DNA from: Ruminococcus sp.
GTDB taxonomy: Bacteria > Bacillota > Clostridia > Oscillospirales > Ruminococcaceae
Reading direction: 5' to 3'
DNA: 51,258 nucleotides
NCBI GenBank assembly: GCA_012718885.1
Contig: JAAYBK010000018.1
Location: 1-51,258, forward strand
Shown: positions 4,677 through 47,116 of the stretch, piece by piece
How positions within the stretch are numbered: position 1 is the first letter of the stretch
Layout: each line of letters opens with the position of its first letter
Notes under the pieces: model-generated
What the model was told of the DNA's origin: nothing
What the model saw: only the letters and a program-made list of their open reading frames with translations
Databases searched by the model: none
Translations under genes and position numbers: made by a program

Positions 4677-6560
4677 ATGAGACCTGTTTATGATTCATGG
4701 GATCTTAGCTATAAATCTATATTCGGCGCAGTGAGACAATTCGAGACCGTGCGCTTCACTATCAGGCTTTCCAAGGATGTCTGTCCGGACTTTCCGCCTG
4801 TATTGGTGCTGTTCCGCACGGGTTTCAAGGAGAGGTTCATAAATATGAACATTGTCACAGAGGAGGAGGATTGTATCGCCTATTCCGCTGACTATGACGC
4901 CCGCTACAGCGATGTTCACTACTATTACTTCTCCTATTCTCAGGGCGGTATACGCCACTATATAAAAAAGGTTTCCCTTCATAAAGCAGGTATCGATCAT
5001 GGCGACCTCTTCCAGCTTACTGTATACAAGATAGCCTATAATACCCCGGATTTTCTCAAGGGCGGAGTGATGTACCAGATATTCCCGGACAGGTTCTGCA
5101 ACAGCGGCAAACCCAAGGAAAACGTTCCGGAGGACAGGATAATGCGTGAATGGGGAGAGACTCCCTATTACCGTCCCGATGAACACGGTCATGTCTGGAA
5201 CAACGACTACTTCGGCGGTGATCTTGCAGGGATACAGTCAAAGCTGGAATATCTTCACGATCTGGGCGTGACCTGCATATACCTGAACCCGATATTTGAA
5301 TCCCACGAGAACCACCGCTACAATACTGCTGATTATATGAAGGTAGATCCGCTTCTCGGCACCAACGAGGACTTTGCAGAGCTTTGCAGTGAGGCTGCAA
5401 AATACGGTATATCCGTGATCCTGGACGGGGTGTTCTCGCATACCGGAGCTGACAGCGTATACTTCAACAAATTCGGCAGATATCCTGAGACCGGCGCATA
5501 TCAGTCTGCTGAAAGCCGCTACTATGACTGGTACAGCTTTATCGACTACCCCAATATCTATGAGGCGTGGTGGGGTATCGATACTCTCCCTAATGTAAAC
5601 GAGAACAACGAGGACTATACCGATTTCATCTGCGGAGACGACGGTGTTCTCCGTTACTGGCTGGGACTTGGAGCGGCAGGCTTCCGTCTGGATGTGGCAG
5701 ACGAGCTCCCCGACCGTTTCCTTGATAATCTGAGAAGATCTGTGAAGGGCTTCGATAAGGATGATATCATAATCGGCGAGGTCTGGGAGGATGCCTCCAA
5801 CAAGGAGAGCTACGGTATAAAGCGCCGCTATCTCCTGGGCGACCAGTTGGATTCGGTAATGAATTATCCCTTCCGTGAGGCTATAATAAACTTTGCCGGC
5901 GGAGGAAGAGCTGAGGATCTTATCAATGCCGTTATGACTATCACCGAGAATTATCCTAAGCCCACCATTGATGTGCTGATGAATTTTGTCTCCACCCACG
6001 ATATCGAAAGGGCGATAAACCGTCTTGGCGGAGAGAGCTGCGACGGAAAGAGCAAGGACTGGATGGCAGAGCGCTTCCTCAGCGATGAGGAGTATGCTGC
6101 CGGAAAGAATAAGCTCCGGACAGCATTTGCTCTCATGTTCTTCCTGCCGGGAGTGCCCTGCATATACTACGGCGACGAGGCCGGACTTCAGGGCTATAAG
6201 GATCCCTTCAACCGCCGCTGCTATCCCTGGGGAGATGAGGATAAGGAGCTCATCTCCTATGTCAGCGAGCTCAGCCGCATAAGAAAAAGTATCCCTAACC
6301 TCAGGGACGGCAAGATCTACTTCGTTCAGAATGACGGCAGCTATATCGATGAGCGCATAACCGCTTTCACCCGTCAGGGAAAGGAAACGGACTGTATTTT
6401 CTTCATTAACCGCAGCCCGGAGACAGTTACTCTCAGCGGACTCAGCGGATATCTTGACAGATTCGGCTCTTTTGAAGCCTTCTGCGGTGATTACACCGAT
6501 GATGTACTGACCATACAGCCCTACAGCTACTCAATAGTAAAAGCCAGATTCAAGGGTTAA
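4677..6560 (+). CDS. GH13 alpha-amylase family enzyme (neopullulanase/cyclomaltodextrinase-like)
   Basis: 627 aa; GVMYQIFPDRFCN, DGVFSHTG, GFRLDVADE, IIGEVWED, FVSTHD motifs. Confidence 0.92.
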   Translation: MRPVYDSWDLSYKSIFGAVRQFETVRFTIRLSKDVCPDFPPVLVLFRTGFKERFINMNIVTEEEDCIAYSADYDARYSDVHYYYFSYSQGGIRHYIKKVSLHKAGIDHGDLFQLTVYKIAYNTPDFLKGGVMYQIFPDRFCNSGKPKENVPEDRIMREWGETPYYRPDEHGHVWNNDYFGGDLAGIQSKLEYLHDLGVTCIYLNPIFESHENHRYNTADYMKVDPLLGTNEDFAELCSEAAKYGISVILDGVFSHTGADSVYFNKFGRYPETGAYQSAESRYYDWYSFIDYPNIYEAWWGIDTLPNVNENNEDYTDFICGDDGVLRYWLGLGAAGFRLDVADELPDRFLDNLRRSVKGFDKDDIIIGEVWEDASNKESYGIKRRYLLGDQLDSVMNYPFREAIINFAGGGRAEDLINAVMTITENYPKPTIDVLMNFVSTHDIERAINRLGGESCDGKSKDWMAERFLSDEEYAAGKNKLRTAFALMFFLPGVPCIYYGDEAGLQGYKDPFNRRCYPWGDEDKELISYVSELSRIRKSIPNLRDGKIYFVQNDGSYIDERITAFTRQGKETDCIFFINRSPETVTLSGLSGYLDRFGSFEAFCGDYTDDVLTIQPYSYSIVKARFKG

Positions 6561-6564
6561 AAAA

Positions 6565-6596
6565 TCCCGGAAGCTTTCAGATAAGCTTCCGGGATA
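6565..6596. terminator. Bidirectional terminator between convergent genes
   Basis: atcccggaagctttcagataagcttccgggat hairpin flanked by A and T runs. Confidence 0.85.
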
Positions 6597-6606
6597 ATTA
6601 TTTATA

Positions 6607-7530
6607 TCAGTCTTTCTTGGACTTCTTTTTTGACTTTTTCTTAGGTTCTTCCTTTGCTTCAAGAGCAGCTTTGAGCTCCTTGCGGCAGCTTTCAAGCTGA
6701 GCCTTGTCCTCTTCCGGAAGCTCGGGATATTCCGGCTTGCAGTCCTTCATAGCGTCAAGCAGTATCTCTGTTATGAGATAGCGTGTGTACCAGCGCTGGT
6801 CGCCGGGAAGAACATACCATGGGCAGTTCTTTGTGGAGGTCTTGTTTATCACCTCGTTGAAGCAGTCAAGATATGCATCGAATTTGTCTCTTACCTTAAG
6901 ATCGTCCGCACGGAATTTCCAGTTCTTTTCAGGAATCTCTATACGCTCAAGAAGCTGCTCGGTCTGCTCCTCCTTTGAGATGTGGAGGAATATCTTAACG
7001 ATATGATAGCTGTTTTCGTAGAGATAATTCTCGAAGCTGTTGACCTGGGCATAGCGCTCCTCGAAGAATTTCTTGTCATCCTTGCCGATATTTCTGTCAG
7101 CCATATGGTAGTGGGGCTTGATATTCTCCACCTGAACAGTTACGAGATCCTCATAGTGGCTGCGGTTGAAGACTGCGATCTCGCCTCTTGCAGGAACATT
7201 TTTATGTATCCTCCAGAGGTAGTCGTGAGCAAGCTCGTCCGATGAGGGAGCCTTGTAGGAATACACCTTTACTCCTGCCGGATTTATGCCGCTGAACACG
7301 TTCTTTATAGATGAATCCTTACCTGAAGCGTCAAGTGCCTGTATAACAAGGATAAGACCCTCACGGCCGTCTGCGTAGAACTTATCCTGTAGCTGAGCCA
7401 GCTCAAGCTTGTTGGCCTCGTATTTAGCGATGATATCTTCCTTATCGACATTGTCTGCTTTGCTGTTGGTAGGGAGCTTGCGTATGTCAGTCTTTTTTCC
7501 TTCTTTTATGAGATACTTATCTGCTTTCAT
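6607..7530 (-). CDS. Polyphosphate kinase 2 family protein (polyphosphate:nucleotide phosphotransferase)
   Basis: Walker A-like LILVIQALDASGKDSSIKNVFSGINPAGVKV; NRSHYEDL; start chosen at MKADKYLIKEG. Confidence 0.93.
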   Translation of the reverse strand: MKADKYLIKEGKKTDIRKLPTNSKADNVDKEDIIAKYEANKLELAQLQDKFYADGREGLILVIQALDASGKDSSIKNVFSGINPAGVKVYSYKAPSSDELAHDYLWRIHKNVPARGEIAVFNRSHYEDLVTVQVENIKPHYHMADRNIGKDDKKFFEERYAQVNSFENYLYENSYHIVKIFLHISKEEQTEQLLERIEIPEKNWKFRADDLKVRDKFDAYLDCFNEVINKTSTKNCPWYVLPGDQRWYTRYLITEILLDAMKDCKPEYPELPEEDKAQLESCRKELKAALEAKEEPKKKSKKKSKKD

Positions 7531-7621
7531 GGGTTTATCCTCCGATCTGTTTAATTGATATACTGTTATTATATCACATATTTTATCAGGAGTAAAGAGG
7601 ATTTTTATTAAACTTACAGAT

Positions 7622-9505
7622 TCATTCCTCGGCCACAAGAAGAATACTTCTGCTCTTGCAGAAGGTCCTGCCGTCACATTCTCTCAGCGGTGTATCAGAG
7701 GCACTTTCGCCGTCGGCATAGATATATCCGGTAGCGATTATCTCCCTGTCCTGCCATGTGGGATTGACAGCAAGGATGACGCTCTTCATCCTTGCGATGA
7801 ATGCGCCGCCGCCGAGGTCGGTGAAGTTGATATATTTTCGTATATCATCGCCGCTTGACATTCTCAGCTCCGGGAATTTTTTCCGCACGGCGATAAGGCC
7901 TTTGTAGTATTCATAGACCTTGTGATATTCGGTGAGCTTGTTCCATTTCAGGCTGTTTACGCTGTCGGGGGAGGCATAGCTGTTATGATCGAAGCCGCAG
8001 TGCGGCACAGGCTTGCTGCGGAGGAATTCCTGTCCGGCCTGTATGAATGGGATGCCCTGTGAGAAGAATACCAATGCTGCTCCCAGCTTGTCTATGTGGA
8101 TGATATCCTCGATGGAGGCTGTCGGCATTGAGAGACGCAGCTTGTCATGGAAGGTCAGATTGTCGTGGGCTTCAACGTAGTTCACCACCTGACAGGGAGA
8201 ATCCGTCCAGTTATGGCCGTAGTGTATCTGAGGATGCCTTACGCCTGCACAGAGCACGGAACGCATCTTCCATTCAAGTTGCTGATCGGCACCGTTGATA
8301 TATCCCATTGACTGATCGCTGAAAACATTGCCCTTGACAGTATCACGGAAATCGTCTGAGAACATAGCGAACTGCGGAAGTCTCCAGGTGTTGTACTTGA
8401 CAGCACGGCGGCCTTCCTCGAGGGGAGAAGCTCCGCCAGTCCAGCCTTCGCCGTAAAGAATAATGGAGGGATTGATCTCCCTCAGCTTTTCGGCGGCCAT
8501 ATTAAGGGTATCGATGTCTATAAGTCCCATCAGATCAAAGCGGAAGCCGTCCAGCTTATATTCGCTGGCAAGGTAGCATAGACTGTCTATGATATATTTC
8601 CTTCCCATTTCCCTTTCGGAGGCAAATTCGTTTCCGCAGCCTGAGCCGTTGGAGAAATGGCCGTCATGGGTCTGGCGGTAATAGTAATCCGGGAAGGACT
8701 TGTTGAACGGTGAATCGGCAGTGAGATAGGTATGGTTGTACACAACATCCATGATTATGCCTATGCCTTTTTTATGGGCGGCAAGGATAAGCTCCTTGAA
8801 CTCCTTGACTCTCACAAGGCCGTCATAGGGATCGGTGGAATATGAGCCCTCGGGGATATTGTAATTGAGGGGGTCATAGCCCCAGTTGTACTGAGGGCGT
8901 GTATCGGATTCGTCAACGGTGAAATAGTCTGCCACAGGCAAAAGGTGGATGTGGGTCACACCGAGGGCAGCTATATGCTCCAGACCCACAGGCTCTCCGG
9001 CAGCATTCTTTACATTTTTTTCTGTGAAGGCCTTGAACTTTCCCCTGTGCTTGAAATTAGCGCTTTCATCAGAGGACAAGTCCCTGACATGGAGCTCGTA
9101 AATGATAGCGTCGGTGTACTTTTTCAGTTTTACCGGTGAACTTTTTTCCCAGCCCCTCGGGCAGGTCAGGGCGGGATCGAATATCATGCCTCTTACGCCG
9201 TTCACTCCGGCTGAGCGAGCATAGATATCGATAGTTTCTCTTTCGACGTATCCAATTCTCACGGTATAGGTATAATATTTTCCGTTGAGATCGCCTTCCG
9301 CCTCGGTCTCCCAGAGGCCGTGTCTGCACACCATGGGCAGGACAGCGATCCTTTCTCCGTCAGTGCCTTCGTTATAGATATTTACTCTGACTTCGTTAGC
9401 GGCCGGAGACCACATACGGAAGATAGTTTTTTCCGGTGACCAGATAGCTCCGAGCTGGCCGTCGTATGAGTAATTGGAGTCGTATTCGATAAAATTCGGC
9501 TGCAT
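7622..9505 (-). CDS. pulA: Type I pullulanase (GH13 with N-terminal CBM48-like domain)
   Basis: YNWGYDP motif, DVVYNHTY, GFRFDLMGLID, ILYGEGWTGG, VEAHDN; start chosen at MQPNFIEYD. Confidence 0.93.
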   Translation of the reverse strand: MQPNFIEYDSNYSYDGQLGAIWSPEKTIFRMWSPAANEVRVNIYNEGTDGERIAVLPMVCRHGLWETEAEGDLNGKYYTYTVRIGYVERETIDIYARSAGVNGVRGMIFDPALTCPRGWEKSSPVKLKKYTDAIIYELHVRDLSSDESANFKHRGKFKAFTEKNVKNAAGEPVGLEHIAALGVTHIHLLPVADYFTVDESDTRPQYNWGYDPLNYNIPEGSYSTDPYDGLVRVKEFKELILAAHKKGIGIIMDVVYNHTYLTADSPFNKSFPDYYYRQTHDGHFSNGSGCGNEFASEREMGRKYIIDSLCYLASEYKLDGFRFDLMGLIDIDTLNMAAEKLREINPSIILYGEGWTGGASPLEEGRRAVKYNTWRLPQFAMFSDDFRDTVKGNVFSDQSMGYINGADQQLEWKMRSVLCAGVRHPQIHYGHNWTDSPCQVVNYVEAHDNLTFHDKLRLSMPTASIEDIIHIDKLGAALVFFSQGIPFIQAGQEFLRSKPVPHCGFDHNSYASPDSVNSLKWNKLTEYHKVYEYYKGLIAVRKKFPELRMSSGDDIRKYINFTDLGGGAFIARMKSVILAVNPTWQDREIIATGYIYADGESASDTPLRECDGRTFCKSRSILLVAEE

Positions 9506-40831: not shown

Positions 40832-42390
40832 TCACTTCTCGAGGAGTCTGTACTGGATGCCGAGAGCGTCCATAGGAGTGATGCCGTTGCCGGTGTTAGC
40901 TACGTCTGCGTTGAACTCGCCCCATTCTGTAAGCTCATACGTGTCAGGGTTGGATATGGACTGCATGATGAGAACAGCGTCGTTCATTTTCATCTGATTG
41001 TCGCCGTCTGCATCGCCGGAGCGCTTGATAGGCTTGCCGTTGAGAGCTTCAAGGTATTTGATATGGCTGATCTCTGCAACTGCTTCGATATTGCTGTTAT
41101 CTGTGCTGTGTGCATCATTATATGCCTTGAGGAGTGCATTTACATCAACATCTTCATTTTCATAATACTTCGTAATTACGAATTCAACTATCTGGAGATC
41201 AAGCATATCACCGCTTACACCATCACTGTTAAGATCGAGCTCATTATCAATGTGATTCCATACTTCCGGAGTCAGAACGCTACCGGAGCTGTCTCTTTGA
41301 GCTACGAGATCGTTGCAATAGATCATTATATCTTTATAGTCTTCCATATCTATAACACCGTCAAAGTTGATATCCGGGGGAGCAACTTCTCCGTTGAGCA
41401 TTCTCTTATCAAAAATCTTGCAGGCTGCTTCGAGATCTTCCATATAATTAGGCTCAAGCATACGATTAATCTTGTCCATCTTATCTACAACTTTAAGAAA
41501 TCCGGCATCGATAGAGATCTTGCTCACATTTGCAACAAATACATCTAAATGGCTGGCGCGTGACATAGCATATTTGATTGATTCAACATCGGCTCCTTCC
41601 GGTAAATTATTTTCGAGATCCTCTAAATAGTCATATATACTCCATGAGTCAACATAGCTTGGATCAAAACCGTTTTTGTAAATAAAATACTTGATAAGTG
41701 TCTCGTTGCTTTCATTGTCAAAGAAGCACTTCTGATAGTATTCATCGCAATTATCCCAGGTTGAGGCTGATATTGAAACAACTGCTTTGGCTGCATTGCT
41801 GTCGAATGGTGATGAGATCTTACTGTAGAAGTAGATCTGATATTCAAGCAGATCATAAATATCAGCTGAACCATTTCTGTTGAAGTCAAGATCAATATTT
41901 TCTGTATCGATAAGATTTGCTGTGTACTGATAGATAAGATCCTGCTCAATAGCTACTTCCTTCAGGTCATTTACAAATTTGTAGCTGTCCATTGTTATCT
42001 CGCCGTTATTATCCGGATAGTTATACATATTGAAATCCTCCGGATCCAGGCCGTTTTTATATAAGTAATAACGTTCAAGAATAACAAGATCGTTGCTCTT
42101 GTCCTGAGATCAAGGTCTATATCGCTTCTTGTGCTGATAACTTCTTTCTCTGCCTCGGTTATCATAGAATCATTATGCATGATATAAGCCCAGAGATCGC
42201 ATACATCATAGCGGTCAAATATACCGTCATTGTTTACGTCCGGGGATGCAGTTCCGTCTTCGATCAATGGGAAAACGTATTCCAGTAAGACAGGGTCTGC
42301 TGTCGGAGGCTCATATGAGGCCTGAACTAATCCTGTAGGGATAACGTTCATAAATGCAATTGTGACTGCTGAAGCTAAAAACTTTTTCAT
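40832..42390 (-). CDS. Secreted protein built of dockerin-like/EF-hand-type repeats with C-terminal dockerin; contains an apparent frameshift near 42105-42112
   Basis: Signal peptide MKKFLASAVTIAFMNVIPTGLVQA behind aaaggag-7nt-ATG; repeats DVNNDGIFDRYDVCDLWAYI, DLDFNRNGSADIYDLLEYQIYF, DINFDGVIDMEDYKDIMIYC, DLNSDGVSGDMLDLQIVEFVI; terminal GDADGDNQMKMNDAVLIMQSISNP...NADVANTGNGITPMDALGIQYRLLE. Two ORF-track pieces join by a 1-nt shift. Confidence 0.8.
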
Positions 42391-43059
42391 AACAATACTC
42401 CTTTCAACGTGAGCGACCTCTTCGTCAAACTCACTGTGAGGTTTAGTGGTTACGATCGTGACCACCGGCTGTTTAGTTGCTGATGTTACAGTAGTGACTG
42501 CTGCCGGATCGGATGAGCGTGCAGTGGTCACTGTGACTTTCGGTGTCTGAGCAGGCTTTCCTGACGGGCGGGTATAGACGACGCCACCGTTGCCGCTGTT
42601 ATTTGCATTATTGTTACCATTGTTTCCGTTACCGTTGATAACTGCCGTAGACGTTATCGGTGTTCCGAAGCCTGCTGTAGTAGTCACGGTATATTTTGTA
42701 TCTGTACCCGGGGCAGTTGTCCGGACAATGCCGCCTGGTACGTCAGGCACCTCTGTAGGGAGTTCTGTATCTGTTATGATGTTGTCGGTATCGCTGTTGA
42801 ACTTTTTAAGCTCAGGAGTTTTCTGAACGCCGTTCCATATGCAGACCGCCGCTGCTACAGCAGTCAATGCTGAAATGGCTATCCAGCCTATCTTTCTGCG
42901 CTTTTTCTCAGCCTTTTCTTCCGGGACTCCGGTCAGTGCTTCCATTTTCTCCTTGAAGTTGTCGGAAAAATCGTAATCGGGGATATCCAGACCGGTCATT
43001 TCATCATAGCTCTCGCTGAGAACTTCTTCGAGAGCATCTTTAAGAATATCCTTGCTCAT
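42391..43059 (-). CDS. Membrane anti-sigma-like protein (cytosolic N-term, one TM, Thr/Pro/Asn-rich extracytoplasmic linker); open frame continues into the dockerin protein
   Basis: MSKDILKDALEEVLSESYDEMTGLDIPDYDFSDNFKEKMEAL...KKRRKIGWIAISALTAVAAAVCIW; ATGA overlap with the sigma factor; no stop before the downstream ATG at 42390. Confidence 0.75.
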
Positions 43060-43580
43060 TTTTTTCCGCCTCCTTCATCAAGAATTTTTGCAAGAGCCTT
43101 TCGTGCTCTCTGGATGCGCTTGTACACGTTTTCGCTCCCAATCTTCAGCAGCATAGATATCTCGTTGATATTGTAGCCGTATACATATCGCAGCATCAAA
43201 ACATCCCGATACTCGTCCTTGAGGTGTTTGATAGCGCTTATCACTGAATCGAAGGAATAACTGTCAAGACTTACCGCTCCCACATCTTCATCCGGTGTTT
43301 CCGAGAGGCAGATCTTCTGGTTTTCTCTGTACTTATCCAGTGCTGCGTTTCTGACAATTATAACGAGCAGCGATGTCATTTTTGGACAGTCAAGTTGTGA
43401 ATATTTTGAAAAATTCTTTGAGAATCTTAGAAACGCTTCTGAAACGCAGTCCTCTGTATCTGCAAAGTTGTTCAGTATATTCATTGCAGTGTACATCATT
43501 AGTCTGCGGTTTTTTATGTATATCTCTTCAAAGGAGAGCTTGCTTTCGGTTTCGGCAGAAGAGTCAAGACATAGCTCCAT
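43056..43580 (-). CDS. ECF-type RNA polymerase sigma factor
   Basis: 174 aa; MNILNNFADTEDCVSEAFLRFSKNFSKY (sigma2-like), DEYRDVLMLRYVYGYNINEISMLLKIGSENVYKRIQRARKAL (sigma4-like). Confidence 0.9.
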   Translation of the reverse strand: MELCLDSSAETESKLSFEEIYIKNRRLMMYTAMNILNNFADTEDCVSEAFLRFSKNFSKYSQLDCPKMTSLLVIIVRNAALDKYRENQKICLSETPDEDVGAVSLDSYSFDSVISAIKHLKDEYRDVLMLRYVYGYNINEISMLLKIGSENVYKRIQRARKALAKILDEGGGKK

Positions 43581-43843
43581 GCGTTTCAGCTCCTTTCCTT
43601 CTATGATAGGTATTCATTATATTAACGTATAATGATACCATTTCTGGACAGCGGAATTGTGAACTTTTTGTAAACAATTTGTTTTGGATGTGATAACAAT
43701 CGTCAATATGGCATAGCAAAGCCGATATCTTGCCCAATGAAGGGAAGAATTGATTGTTTATTATGCAGAAATCTGTGCAAGTGCCTTTATTATGTTGAAA
43801 AAATATGGTATAATTGTATAAAATATCTGGGGAGGTTTTTCGT

Positions 43844-46800
43844 ATGACATTTCTGAAAAGAACACTGGCTTCTGCGGCAGCTCTGAGCATAGCATTTCTT
43901 CCTGTATGCGGGCTTCCGTATTCTTCACCGGAAAAAGTTTTTGCCGCAGATTATACTGAGGGCTCTACTGACGAGCTGAAATATTATCAGTATTCAGACC
44001 ATGTGACCATAGTCGGAGTAGTCAGCAACAGCATAAGATCCGTGGAGGTGCCGGACAGCATAGCCGGACTTCCGGTAACAGAGCTTGGAACAAGGGCATT
44101 TGCGTCCTGCTATTATCTTGAATCAGTCAGGCTTCCGGAAAAGCTGGAAAAGATCGGAGCATATGCCTTCCTTAACTGCCGGAATATCAAGGAGATAAGC
44201 ATACCTGATACTGTATCGTCGATAGGCAGCGAGGCGTTCAGACAGTGCTCCGGGCTGGAATCCTTCACCCTGCCTGCCTCACTGACAGAACTGGGAACAG
44301 CAGTATTTACCGGCTGCAAGAAGATATCCTCATTCAGTGCCGCAAAGGGCAGCAAGATTTTTTCCGTATCTGACGGCATAGTATTCAGCGACAGCGGAAA
44401 AACTCTTGCGGTATTCCCGGCGGCAAAGAATGTTACGGAATATACTGTTCCCGGAACAGTTACAAAGATAGCTCCTACAGCATTTTCCGGCTGTACGGAA
44501 CTTGTGGCGGTAGACATACCGGATACTGTAAAGGAATGCGGAGGAGGCCTGTTCTATGGCTGTTCCTCTCTTGAAACGGTAAGGCTGCCGGAAAGCCTGA
44601 CCGAACTGGACTATACGCCTTCATATAACTACTATTCCGATCCGCTGGGCTTCTTTGAGAACTGCGTAAAGCTAAAAAACATAACGTTCCCTTCCGGACT
44701 GACCGTGCTGGATTACGATGCGTTTTACGGATGCCGGGCATTTACCGAGTTCATAGTCCCTGACAGTGTAGAGAAGATATACAGCGGAGCTTTTGAGAAC
44801 AACAGCGCCCTGACTTCCATAACACTGGGCAGCTCCGTCAGCGAGGTCAGCACCTCGGCATTTGACGGCTGTTCTGTACTGGAGGCGATAAATGTCTCTC
44901 CGGAAAACAAGTATTATTCCTCTGTGGACGGTGTTATGTTCGATAAGGAAGGCAGCACCATCGTCATGTATCCATTCGGCAGGAAGGCAAGCTCGTATAC
45001 AGTTCCTTCCAGAGTCAGAACTATAGGCTATGCCTCGTTCTATGAAAATCCCAACATAGAAAAGATAGTGATACCAGCCTCAGTGACCAGGCTGGAAGCC
45101 TATTCGCTGAACAGGTGCAGCAAGCTGACCGATATCGTATTTGAGGATCCTGATGCTGTTGATAAGCTGAGTATTGGCAGATACGCCCTTTACGGCTCGG
45201 CGTATCAGAATAACTGCACCGATGAACAGGGGTTCGCAGTCACTGACAGCGGAATACTGCTGGCAGTTCCGGAAGCGGCCACGGGAGAGCTTGTTATACC
45301 TGAAAACGTCAGACTTGCAGCCGGGGCTTCGATAGTAAACAAGAACATAACAAAGCTTATATTCCAGGGGGATGTACGGCTTGACGAAACAGCAGTATAC
45401 TGGTGCGAAAGCCTGACTGCCATTGAGGTGGACGGCGATCTTGTCTATGGAAATAATGCGGTGTACAGCGGCACCAGTACCCTTACTGACCTGAAGGTCA
45501 CCGGCGATATCCGGCTAAAAGGAACGCTTCCCAGAACAGTGGTCAACGTGTCACGGGGACGAAAGGCACTGGAATACGATATATCTGACAGTACCGGCGA
45601 AAAGGAATATACGGCAGCCAGCGAGCAGATAAAGTCCGGATTGGACATAAAAGCCAGCAGCGGCTGGTACATAGACAGCGTGTTCGAGATGAAGCTCAGT
45701 GACGGCTCAGCCTGTGCGGCGATAGCGGTCAGCGGCGGTGCGGCTGTATATACTCAGGACGGCCGCCTGATGTTCTCCGTTATGAAGGAGGGAATGACCC
45801 TCGGAGCAGCCTGTGCAGACAATGAGGATAATATATACATCATGTGGGGCTTCAGCATCAAGGACGATGTTATCGCAGATAATATGGATACCTGCAATGT
45901 TGTTGTTGAAAAATACGACAGCAGCGGCAGGCTGCTGAAAACTCTGGGCTTGTCTCCGTCACAGACCCAAGCGCAGTTCCCTTTTGATGCCGGAAATGCA
46001 AATATGAGCATAAGCGGAGGTGTTATGGGACTGCTTTTCGATACGGAATGGCTCAGGTCCTCTGACGGATATCATCATCAGGGTTCAGTCTTCGTTGCAG
46101 CAAACTCCTCTGACCTTTCAGTGATAAGCATAGATACCCTCAATGCCTCCCACTCCTTCGGCGTAAGCATGATACCTACGGAGAGCGGATTTGCGGATAT
46201 TCAGAACGGCGATGCCAATTACAGAGGCATCAATTTCTGCTTCTATGACAGGGCTTCTGATACCCACAGCAGGATAGTGGGATTCCATTCTCCGGGCAAA
46301 TACGGATCCAATTCTGCTCAGCTTGACGGCAACGCAACCTATATCAGGCTTGGCGGACTTGCAAAGAGCCGTACAACCTATGCCATAACAGGCAGCGGCG
46401 AAAAGAACTATACCTCAGATGTGTTCTACAATTCTGAGTACAGACAGAGAAAGTACAATGTGTTTGTGCGTATCTGGGACGATACTCTTATCTCTTCAGC
46501 AGCCTCCGGATGTGCAGGTGTTGACAGGATCGATCTTGCCACCGGAAAAGTAGCCGATACAAATGTGATATGGCTGACGGACTGTGCCGAGAACGAGGCT
46601 GTAGGGGCAGTTAAGGCTGTTGCTCTTGAACAGGGCGCATATGTAGTGATGTGGGAGAAGTATACCGACACAGAGTTTGACAGTGTCAGGTATGTAGTTC
46701 TTGACGAGTGCGGAAATGTGCTCCGCAAGGAGACTGAGCTGAAAGGCTCCAGGCTTTCAGATTCGTCCATACAGCCGGTGGTAGACGGCAATACCCTTAC

Positions 46801-47116
46801 ATGGGCTTATACCAACGACAACGACGACACACTGACCTGGTACAGCTTTGAGATAAATGGAAAAACGCCTGTAGCCGGTGATGCTGACTGTGACAGTCAG
46901 GTAAAGATGAACGACGCAGTGCTGGTAATGCAGGCATTGTCGAATCCGGATATATTCGGCCTTAACGGGTCAAACAGCCGCCATATAACGGAACAGGGCG
47001 AGAGAAACGCAGATGTGTATGAGCGTGGCAGCAAGCTGACACCTATGGACGCATTATCGATACAGAGATATCTTATCGAGCTGATCCCGTCGCTGCCGGA
47101 AAGCTATATGAAATAA
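43844..47116 (+). CDS. Secreted BspA-type leucine-rich-repeat (LRR_5) protein with C-terminal dockerin
   Basis: Signal peptide MTFLKRTLASAAALSIAFLPVCG; repeats of the form IPDTVSSIGSEAFRQCSGLESFTLPASLTELG; C-term GDADCDSQVKMNDAVLVMQALSNPDIFG...NADVYERGSKLTPMDALSIQRYLIEL; ggggagg SD. Confidence 0.9.
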   Translation: MTFLKRTLASAAALSIAFLPVCGLPYSSPEKVFAADYTEGSTDELKYYQYSDHVTIVGVVSNSIRSVEVPDSIAGLPVTELGTRAFASCYYLESVRLPEKLEKIGAYAFLNCRNIKEISIPDTVSSIGSEAFRQCSGLESFTLPASLTELGTAVFTGCKKISSFSAAKGSKIFSVSDGIVFSDSGKTLAVFPAAKNVTEYTVPGTVTKIAPTAFSGCTELVAVDIPDTVKECGGGLFYGCSSLETVRLPESLTELDYTPSYNYYSDPLGFFENCVKLKNITFPSGLTVLDYDAFYGCRAFTEFIVPDSVEKIYSGAFENNSALTSITLGSSVSEVSTSAFDGCSVLEAINVSPENKYYSSVDGVMFDKEGSTIVMYPFGRKASSYTVPSRVRTIGYASFYENPNIEKIVIPASVTRLEAYSLNRCSKLTDIVFEDPDAVDKLSIGRYALYGSAYQNNCTDEQGFAVTDSGILLAVPEAATGELVIPENVRLAAGASIVNKNITKLIFQGDVRLDETAVYWCESLTAIEVDGDLVYGNNAVYSGTSTLTDLKVTGDIRLKGTLPRTVVNVSRGRKALEYDISDSTGEKEYTAASEQIKSGLDIKASSGWYIDSVFEMKLSDGSACAAIAVSGGAAVYTQDGRLMFSVMKEGMTLGAACADNEDNIYIMWGFSIKDDVIADNMDTCNVVVEKYDSSGRLLKTLGLSPSQTQAQFPFDAGNANMSISGGVMGLLFDTEWLRSSDGYHHQGSVFVAANSSDLSVISIDTLNASHSFGVSMIPTESGFADIQNGDANYRGINFCFYDRASDTHSRIVGFHSPGKYGSNSAQLDGNATYIRLGGLAKSRTTYAITGSGEKNYTSDVFYNSEYRQRKYNVFVRIWDDTLISSAASGCAGVDRIDLATGKVADTNVIWLTDCAENEAVGAVKAVALEQGAYVVMWEKYTDTEFDSVRYVVLDECGNVLRKETELKGSRLSDSSIQPVVDGNTLTWAYTNDNDDTLTWYSFEINGKTPVAGDADCDSQVKMNDAVLVMQALSNPDIFGLNGSNSRHITEQGERNADVYERGSKLTPMDALSIQRYLIELIPSLPESYMK

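Follow-up and report, generated by a model that had tools for sequence, protein, structure and literature searches.

The window analysed here is the whole stretch of 51,258 nucleotides from a draft assembly of Ruminococcus sp. (contig JAAYBK010000018.1). The locus under study lies on its reverse strand, where a predicted ECF sigma factor gene overlaps a putative anti-sigma gene whose frame runs on into a signal peptide with a candidate translation start of its own. In the direction of transcription we located the following features:

43623..43650 (-): putative autoregulatory ECF-type promoter, TGTCCAGAAATGGTATCATTATACGTTA, from an alignment with the upstream regions of four orthologous sigma genes
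43056..43580 (-): ECF sigma factor of 174 aa, from Pfam regions 2 and 4
41995..43059 (-): anti-sigma/ectodomain ORF as sequenced, 354 aa, the last residues of which lie outside the family frame
42892..43059 (-): cytosolic head, aa 1-56, presumed to bind sigma, from the sequence and from its adjoining the sigma gene
42832..42891 (-): transmembrane segment TM1, ~aa 57-76, with KKRRK just before it, from hydropathy
42409..42825 (-): Thr/Pro/Asn-rich stalk, from the sequence
42398..42404 (-): internal Shine-Dalgarno (SD) sequence AAAGGAG, within GAA AGG AGT = E-R-S, from its 7-nt spacer and nucleotide conservation in the family
42388..42390 (-): internal in-frame start codon ATG (ATG in 97 of 99 family members, GTG in one, GTC in one)
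42319..42390 (-): Sec signal peptide MKKFLASAVTIAFMNVIPTGLVQA with a predicted type I site VQA-SYE, from n-region and A-x-A statistics in the family
42090..42106 (-): frameshift, with one base apparently missing compared with all intact relatives
40832..42028 (-): rest of the ectodomain with dockerin-like Ca-loop repeats, in the shifted frame, 61% identical to L021:3243-5411, residues 323-718
40835..41023 (-): C-terminal dockerin of the R. flavefaciens group-1 type, from phmmer matches to 5m2o_B (2.3e-11) and 5m2s_B (1.5e-10)

The sigma ORF matched the Pfam profiles Sigma70_r2 (4.7e-9), r4_2 (4.3e-11) and Sigma70_r4, and it scored 67.1 bits against TIGR02937 (sigma70-ECF), for which the cut-off is 42.9 bits. 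Judging from these profiles it is of the ECF type with sigma-70 regions 2 and 4 only, and it shows 86.7% identity to an ortholog in a R. flavefaciens MAG (UBA3730 copy a). The head of the anti-sigma gene begins with an ATG that overlaps the TGA stop of the sigma gene, as ATGA (AAATGA). It is 76% identical to a head in genome G081, and Pfam detected no anti-sigma head domain in the window ORF or in 7 full-length relatives; that the head binds sigma is presumed from the position of the gene. TM1 is followed by an open frame: from 43059 no stop was found through the membrane segment and the stalk into MKKFLASAVTIAFMNVIPTGLVQA-SYE, and the ATG at 42390 is preceded by its own AAAGGAG at 42404-42398 with a spacer of 7 nt. 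The ECF-like sigma, the overlap, the stop-free frame into MKKFLAS and the strong SD before the internal ATG had all been reported in the initial annotation, and each was recovered here. On the other strand, at 43838-47116 (+), lies a divergent gene for a BspA-type leucine-rich-repeat protein (LRR_5 1.1e-73) that ends in a dockerin; it is 74% identical to, and syntenic with, the R. flavefaciens UBA3730 locus and is possibly co-regulated with the sigma operon.

Upstream of the orthologous sigma genes we observed a shared promoter motif, here called type a, which reads TGTC(C/G)A.A, 14-16 nt, CGTTA. Of the 4 genomes searched for the motif of a second sigma type, TGCACATCA-N-ACGTCAA, 3 contained it at a single site, which lies ahead of the operon of that type. 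When strict promoter patterns were used to look for a wider regulon, the matches were confined to the operons themselves, sites inside the sigma coding sequence and two others, and we propose no wider regulon. With such motifs the sigma factor may autoregulate its operon.

According to the initial annotation the anti-sigma frame runs into a dockerin-repeat protein without a stop. In the window this was true as far as the signal peptide, but the copy as sequenced does not carry the dockerin in the same frame: a 1-nt shift occurs at ~42,100. After ...SDIDLDLRTRA the homologous protein resumes as NDLVILERYYLYKNG in the frame of the ORF 42028-40832, and anti-sigma and terminal dockerin (41023-40835) thus lie in different frames. 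The true ectodomain of the window would have ~500 aa and end at 40832. The frameshift is either a real mutation or an assembly error of the draft, and both readings stand. A comparable natural frameshift appears to be present in L029 (genome G035, ~5530-8411), where the frame of the head differs from that of the ectodomain in a near-complete genome. A dockerin and an anti-sigma in one frame are thus missing from the window copy and present in its intact relatives. These relatives are single stop-free ORFs that encode 536-1291 aa and have their parts arranged as in the window; some of them come from records of Ruminococcus flavefaciens and of Ruminococcus sp. rumen MAGs.

The extent of the family was determined with a search of 125 Ruminococcus species genomes, from which 120 loci were fetched and the junction between stalk and signal peptide was located in each member. 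The search for the architecture of ECF sigma, membrane segment and dockerin, which had been proposed along with the initial annotation, was successful: we found at least 99 fused anti-sigma/ectodomain ORFs in at least 48 of the 125 genomes, nearly all of them drafts. An ECF sigma ORF lies directly upstream in 92 of the 99, and some of the remaining loci end at a contig edge. The richest genome has at least five paralogs, as has the genome of the window itself. Outside the genus no member was detected among 295 genomes of the order at E 1e-40. The longest member, L023:6500-10375 (-), encodes 1291 aa with a far longer ectodomain and extra repeats, and at L021:3243-8789 two tandem sigma/anti-sigma-dockerin operons are present in R. 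flavefaciens UBA3730. In addition to the fused genes there are 18 standalone secreted homologs (including L132, L139, L147, L164 and L175-L181), each beginning exactly at the junction and with no sigma gene in the fetched flanks. We excluded the 640-aa L152 from the fused members: a stop is present in its near relative L158, and the open reading upstream in L152 is a chance one.

A trivial explanation of the fusion would be that two ordinary adjacent genes lost the stop between them by chance or through an assembly error. The assembly is indeed a draft with one frameshift close by. However, across the 110 codons preceding the junction both alternative frames contain stops in 99/99 loci, and in none of the orthologs did we find the stop between stalk and MKKFLAS that such a history would leave; the head is out of frame with the ectodomain in one locus in ~100, L029. 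Moreover no standalone member adjoins a sigma gene, save this frameshifted one. At least 99 open frames in at least 48 genomes, with both other frames blocked, rule this explanation out. A Thr/Pro stalk makes sense only with an attached ectodomain, and the genus-wide conservation of the fused frame supports a single-chain product.

We then considered the nucleotide sequence at the junction. The residues preceding the Met vary between members (ERS, EGS, EGR, EGK, ERN, EEG, EEGGN), whereas the DNA in most of them reads as an SD, mainly AAGGAG or AAGGGAG at 7 nt, a spacing kept in the great majority. A strong internal SD was present in 88 of the 99 members. The median energy of the anti-SD duplex was -11.0 kcal/mol at the junction compared to -1.9 for 1477 Met codons elsewhere within the ORFs, and the 18 standalone starts showed a very similar median to the fused junctions (-10.8 kcal/mol). 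Codon choice follows the same pattern: Arg at -4 is AGG in 55/57 cases (15% elsewhere in those ORFs), Gly at the junction is GGG in 25/28 (4% background) and Ser at -3 uses AGT or AGC in 68/68 (37% background). Synonymous resampling of the same peptides gave a Fisher p of 3e-32 over 52 clusters at 50% identity, an indicative value as the clusters are still related to one another. For moderately diverged pairs the synonymous codon identity was 0.88-0.93 at codons -5, -4, -1 and +1 against a background of 0.625, and in 74 of 88 members the local mRNA structure was weaker than in synonymous resamples. In L130 the Met is replaced by Val, with the codon GTG (still a start) and an intact SD; L124 has GTC at this position together with a degraded SD. 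From these patterns the internal start appears to be under selection as a nucleotide sequence, beyond any constraint on the protein.

The same data bear on two explanations without internal initiation. If the gene encoded a single-chain anti-sigma only, ERSxxMKK would be a peptide motif, for example a protease site or a second membrane segment, and the SD would be incidental. The frame stays open even in members with a decayed SD, which implies that the full-length chain is useful alone. Yet it is the codons that are conserved and not the residues, GTG substitutes for ATG in one member and the hydrophobic segment falls short of a membrane span in 87% of members. Codon choice rules out the peptide motif, and we regard the single-chain explanation as a whole as very unlikely. 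SD-like sequences within ORFs can slow elongation, and the internal SD could accordingly act as a pausing signal that aids membrane insertion of the anti-sigma with no initiation taking place. This would not account for the fixed 7-nt spacing to the ATG, the AAA as next codon and the complete signal peptide directly after it, nor for the identical start being used by the standalone homologs, and it is in our view very unlikely. Around 11 of the 99 members are without a good internal SD, which suggests that some lineages can do without the short product.

The signal peptide changes together with the SD. Where the SD is strong (88 members), an n-region with at least two K/R (KK/KR) was found in 94% and an A-x-A site in 91%. 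For the 11 members with a weak SD the respective values were 27% and 55% (n-region: Fisher p 1e-6, although these members fall into ~six lineages and the independent support is smaller than this value implies). The hydrophobic stretch of the signal peptide is below the usual strength of a membrane segment in 87% of members, unlike TM1, for which the family mean hydropathy across 19 residues is 1.93. As SD and n-region decay together and the stretch is weaker than a membrane span, the internally started product is most likely the one that uses the signal peptide, and the full-length chain can probably carry the stretch across the membrane. The initial annotation had allowed for signal-peptidase cleavage of the full-length chain; this becomes less likely, given that the signal-peptide features decay alongside the SD. 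The frame is kept where the internal start is lost, which argues that the full-length chain is probably functional in its own right.

In order to follow the history of the fusion we placed the head types on a tree of the ectodomains. There are at least four head types, unrelated-looking and interspersed across the tree with 28 label changes, a count taken from a FastTree topology with several long branches and coarse head labels. The standalone genes form two groups nested among the fused ones (2 changes), and for this reason the fusion looks older; the standalone secreted genes may have arisen from fused ones by way of the internal start. The window copy is itself a chimera. Its sigma and head match copy a of the two tandem operons of R. 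flavefaciens UBA3730, while the ectodomain most resembles copy b (68% and 61% identity, compared to 33% and 38% for copy a), and the switch in likeness occurs near the internal start. The scattered head types and the chimera suggest that the sigma and head on one side and the cassette of SD, signal peptide and ectodomain on the other act as modules that can be exchanged, with the joint close to the internal start. One could argue that SD and signal peptide are then no more than relics of repeated recent fusions behind various heads, with no selection afterwards. The interspersed heads and the different closest relatives of the window's head and ectodomain would fit, but the SD is kept in same-head lineages despite divergence of the protein, the synonymous sites are constrained and the nesting of the standalone genes points to an older fusion. 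We consider such relics very unlikely. The frameshift of the window, the multi-paralog family, the standalone secreted homologs and the swapping of heads are four features that the initial annotation did not contain.

The C-terminal module of the family was compared to solved structures. A profile of the family dockerin matched PDB 5m2o/5m2s with E 1.7e-25; these structures show R. flavefaciens group-1 dockerins together with ScaB and ScaA cohesins (PMC5429695). Dockerin_1 was recognised in 15 of 17 members and is the only domain that Pfam reported in the ectodomain, where no carbohydrate-binding module or glycoside hydrolase was detected. Cohesin domains were present in 12/12 genomes tested, with 5 matches in the genome of the window. 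By homology the module is thus a R. flavefaciens group-1 dockerin, and cohesin binding is predicted. The structure model of an intact relative was confident for residues 231-630, which are helical with Ca-loop repeats, and of low confidence in head, stalk and dockerin. A fold search with the ectodomain model returned no match below E 0.001.

The fused frame, the conserved internal initiation site, the signal peptide, the dockerin homology and the cohesin genes, all of them read from sequence, suggest that both products are made. A dual-product gene, encoding a membrane-anchored dockerin-bearing anti-sigma and a secreted isoform of its ectodomain, is in our judgement quite probable. Both readings put forward initially, the single-chain dockerin anti-sigma and the nested products favoured at the time, are supported, by the conserved fusion and the codon-selected SD/ATG, respectively. 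The first product would start at the 5' ATG and consist of a cytosolic head holding the ECF sigma, one membrane segment and, outside, a wall-spanning Thr/Pro stalk, an ectodomain rich in Ca-loops and a terminal cellulosomal group-1 dockerin. The second would start from the SD/ATG at the end of the stalk and comprise the same ectodomain behind a cleavable Sec signal peptide, so that it would be secreted free of the membrane. The anchored form would restrain the sigma until an event outside the cell leads to regulated proteolysis, and the released sigma would drive its own operon.

As for the signal, in the working model that we prefer the anchored and secreted isoforms would compete for the same cohesins. 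Free cohesins would capture the anchored form, sigma would be released and more of the secreted isoform would be produced, which would in turn fill the cohesins and switch the system off. Such a self-titrating sensor of cellulosome occupancy, turned on by vacant scaffoldin cohesins and turned off by the secreted isoform, is a tentative and rather doubtful proposal; a signal from polysaccharide, Ca2+ or the wall has at least the same probability. The same two products could be made with an ectodomain that senses plant polysaccharide, Ca2+ or cell-wall fragments, the dockerin merely anchoring the secreted form in the cellulosome. We consider this a serious possibility and judge it close to evenly balanced: ~400 confidently folded residues of helices and Ca-loops with no solved fold relative precede the dockerin, and the RsgI anti-sigmas of Acetivibrio sense polysaccharides (PMC11557425, PMC12484212). 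Nevertheless Pfam found no carbohydrate-binding module, and the dockerin is the only recognisable ligand-binding module.

In the open-access literature we found no description of dockerin-bearing ECF anti-sigmas or of internally started anti-sigmas. Surveys of ruminococcal dockerins describe secreted proteins with signal peptides and leave sigma or transmembrane forms unmentioned (PMC2930009, PMC4081043). In a 2024 cellulosome survey, RsgI-type control is assigned to Acetivibrio and the text on Ruminococcus cellulosomes names no regulator (PMC11557425). The dockerin-bearing ECF anti-sigmas, genus-wide and with at least five in the richest genome, are direct candidate regulators of ruminococcal cellulosomes and suggest a new route by which rumen Ruminococcus could sense and control fibre digestion. 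In the nested start we see a clear case, open to experiment, in which a single bacterial gene would yield both a regulator held in the membrane and a secreted isoform. Annotation of genomes would pick the fused protein or the short one and overlook its counterpart.

The closest parallel is SigI/RsgI of Acetivibrio (Clostridium) thermocellum, in which a membrane anti-sigma with a large extracellular module forms an operon with its sigma, with many paralogs per genome in cellulosome producers. The initial annotation had already pointed to this system, and the logic is alike, but the defining features differ: the Ruminococcus sigma is an ECF sigma with region 4 and without the SigI C-terminal domain, the head is not RsgI_N (no Pfam match in the window ORF and the 7 full-length relatives) and the ectodomain ends in a dockerin instead of a CBM or GH. 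Pfam thus rules out membership in SigI/RsgI by sigma type, head and ectodomain, and the Ruminococcus gene would moreover encode a second, secreted product in frame. With pairs of ECF sigma and single-pass anti-sigma the locus shares the overlapping genes and the one membrane segment, and its putative autoregulated promoter may be a further likeness; it differs in the ~500-aa cellulosomal ectodomain and the internal translation start. The C-terminal dockerin is of the same type as in the R. flavefaciens group-1 dockerin proteins, the ligands of ScaA/ScaB (PMC5429695), although here it is fused to an anti-sigma. One frame with two products and an internal SD/ATG is likewise found for Cas11 inside cas8 (PMC11899642) and for the lysin embedded in lysA of Ms6 (PMC3111421). 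In contrast to both, the short product at this locus would be a secreted isoform of a membrane regulator, and its signal peptide sits mid-way in the long product.
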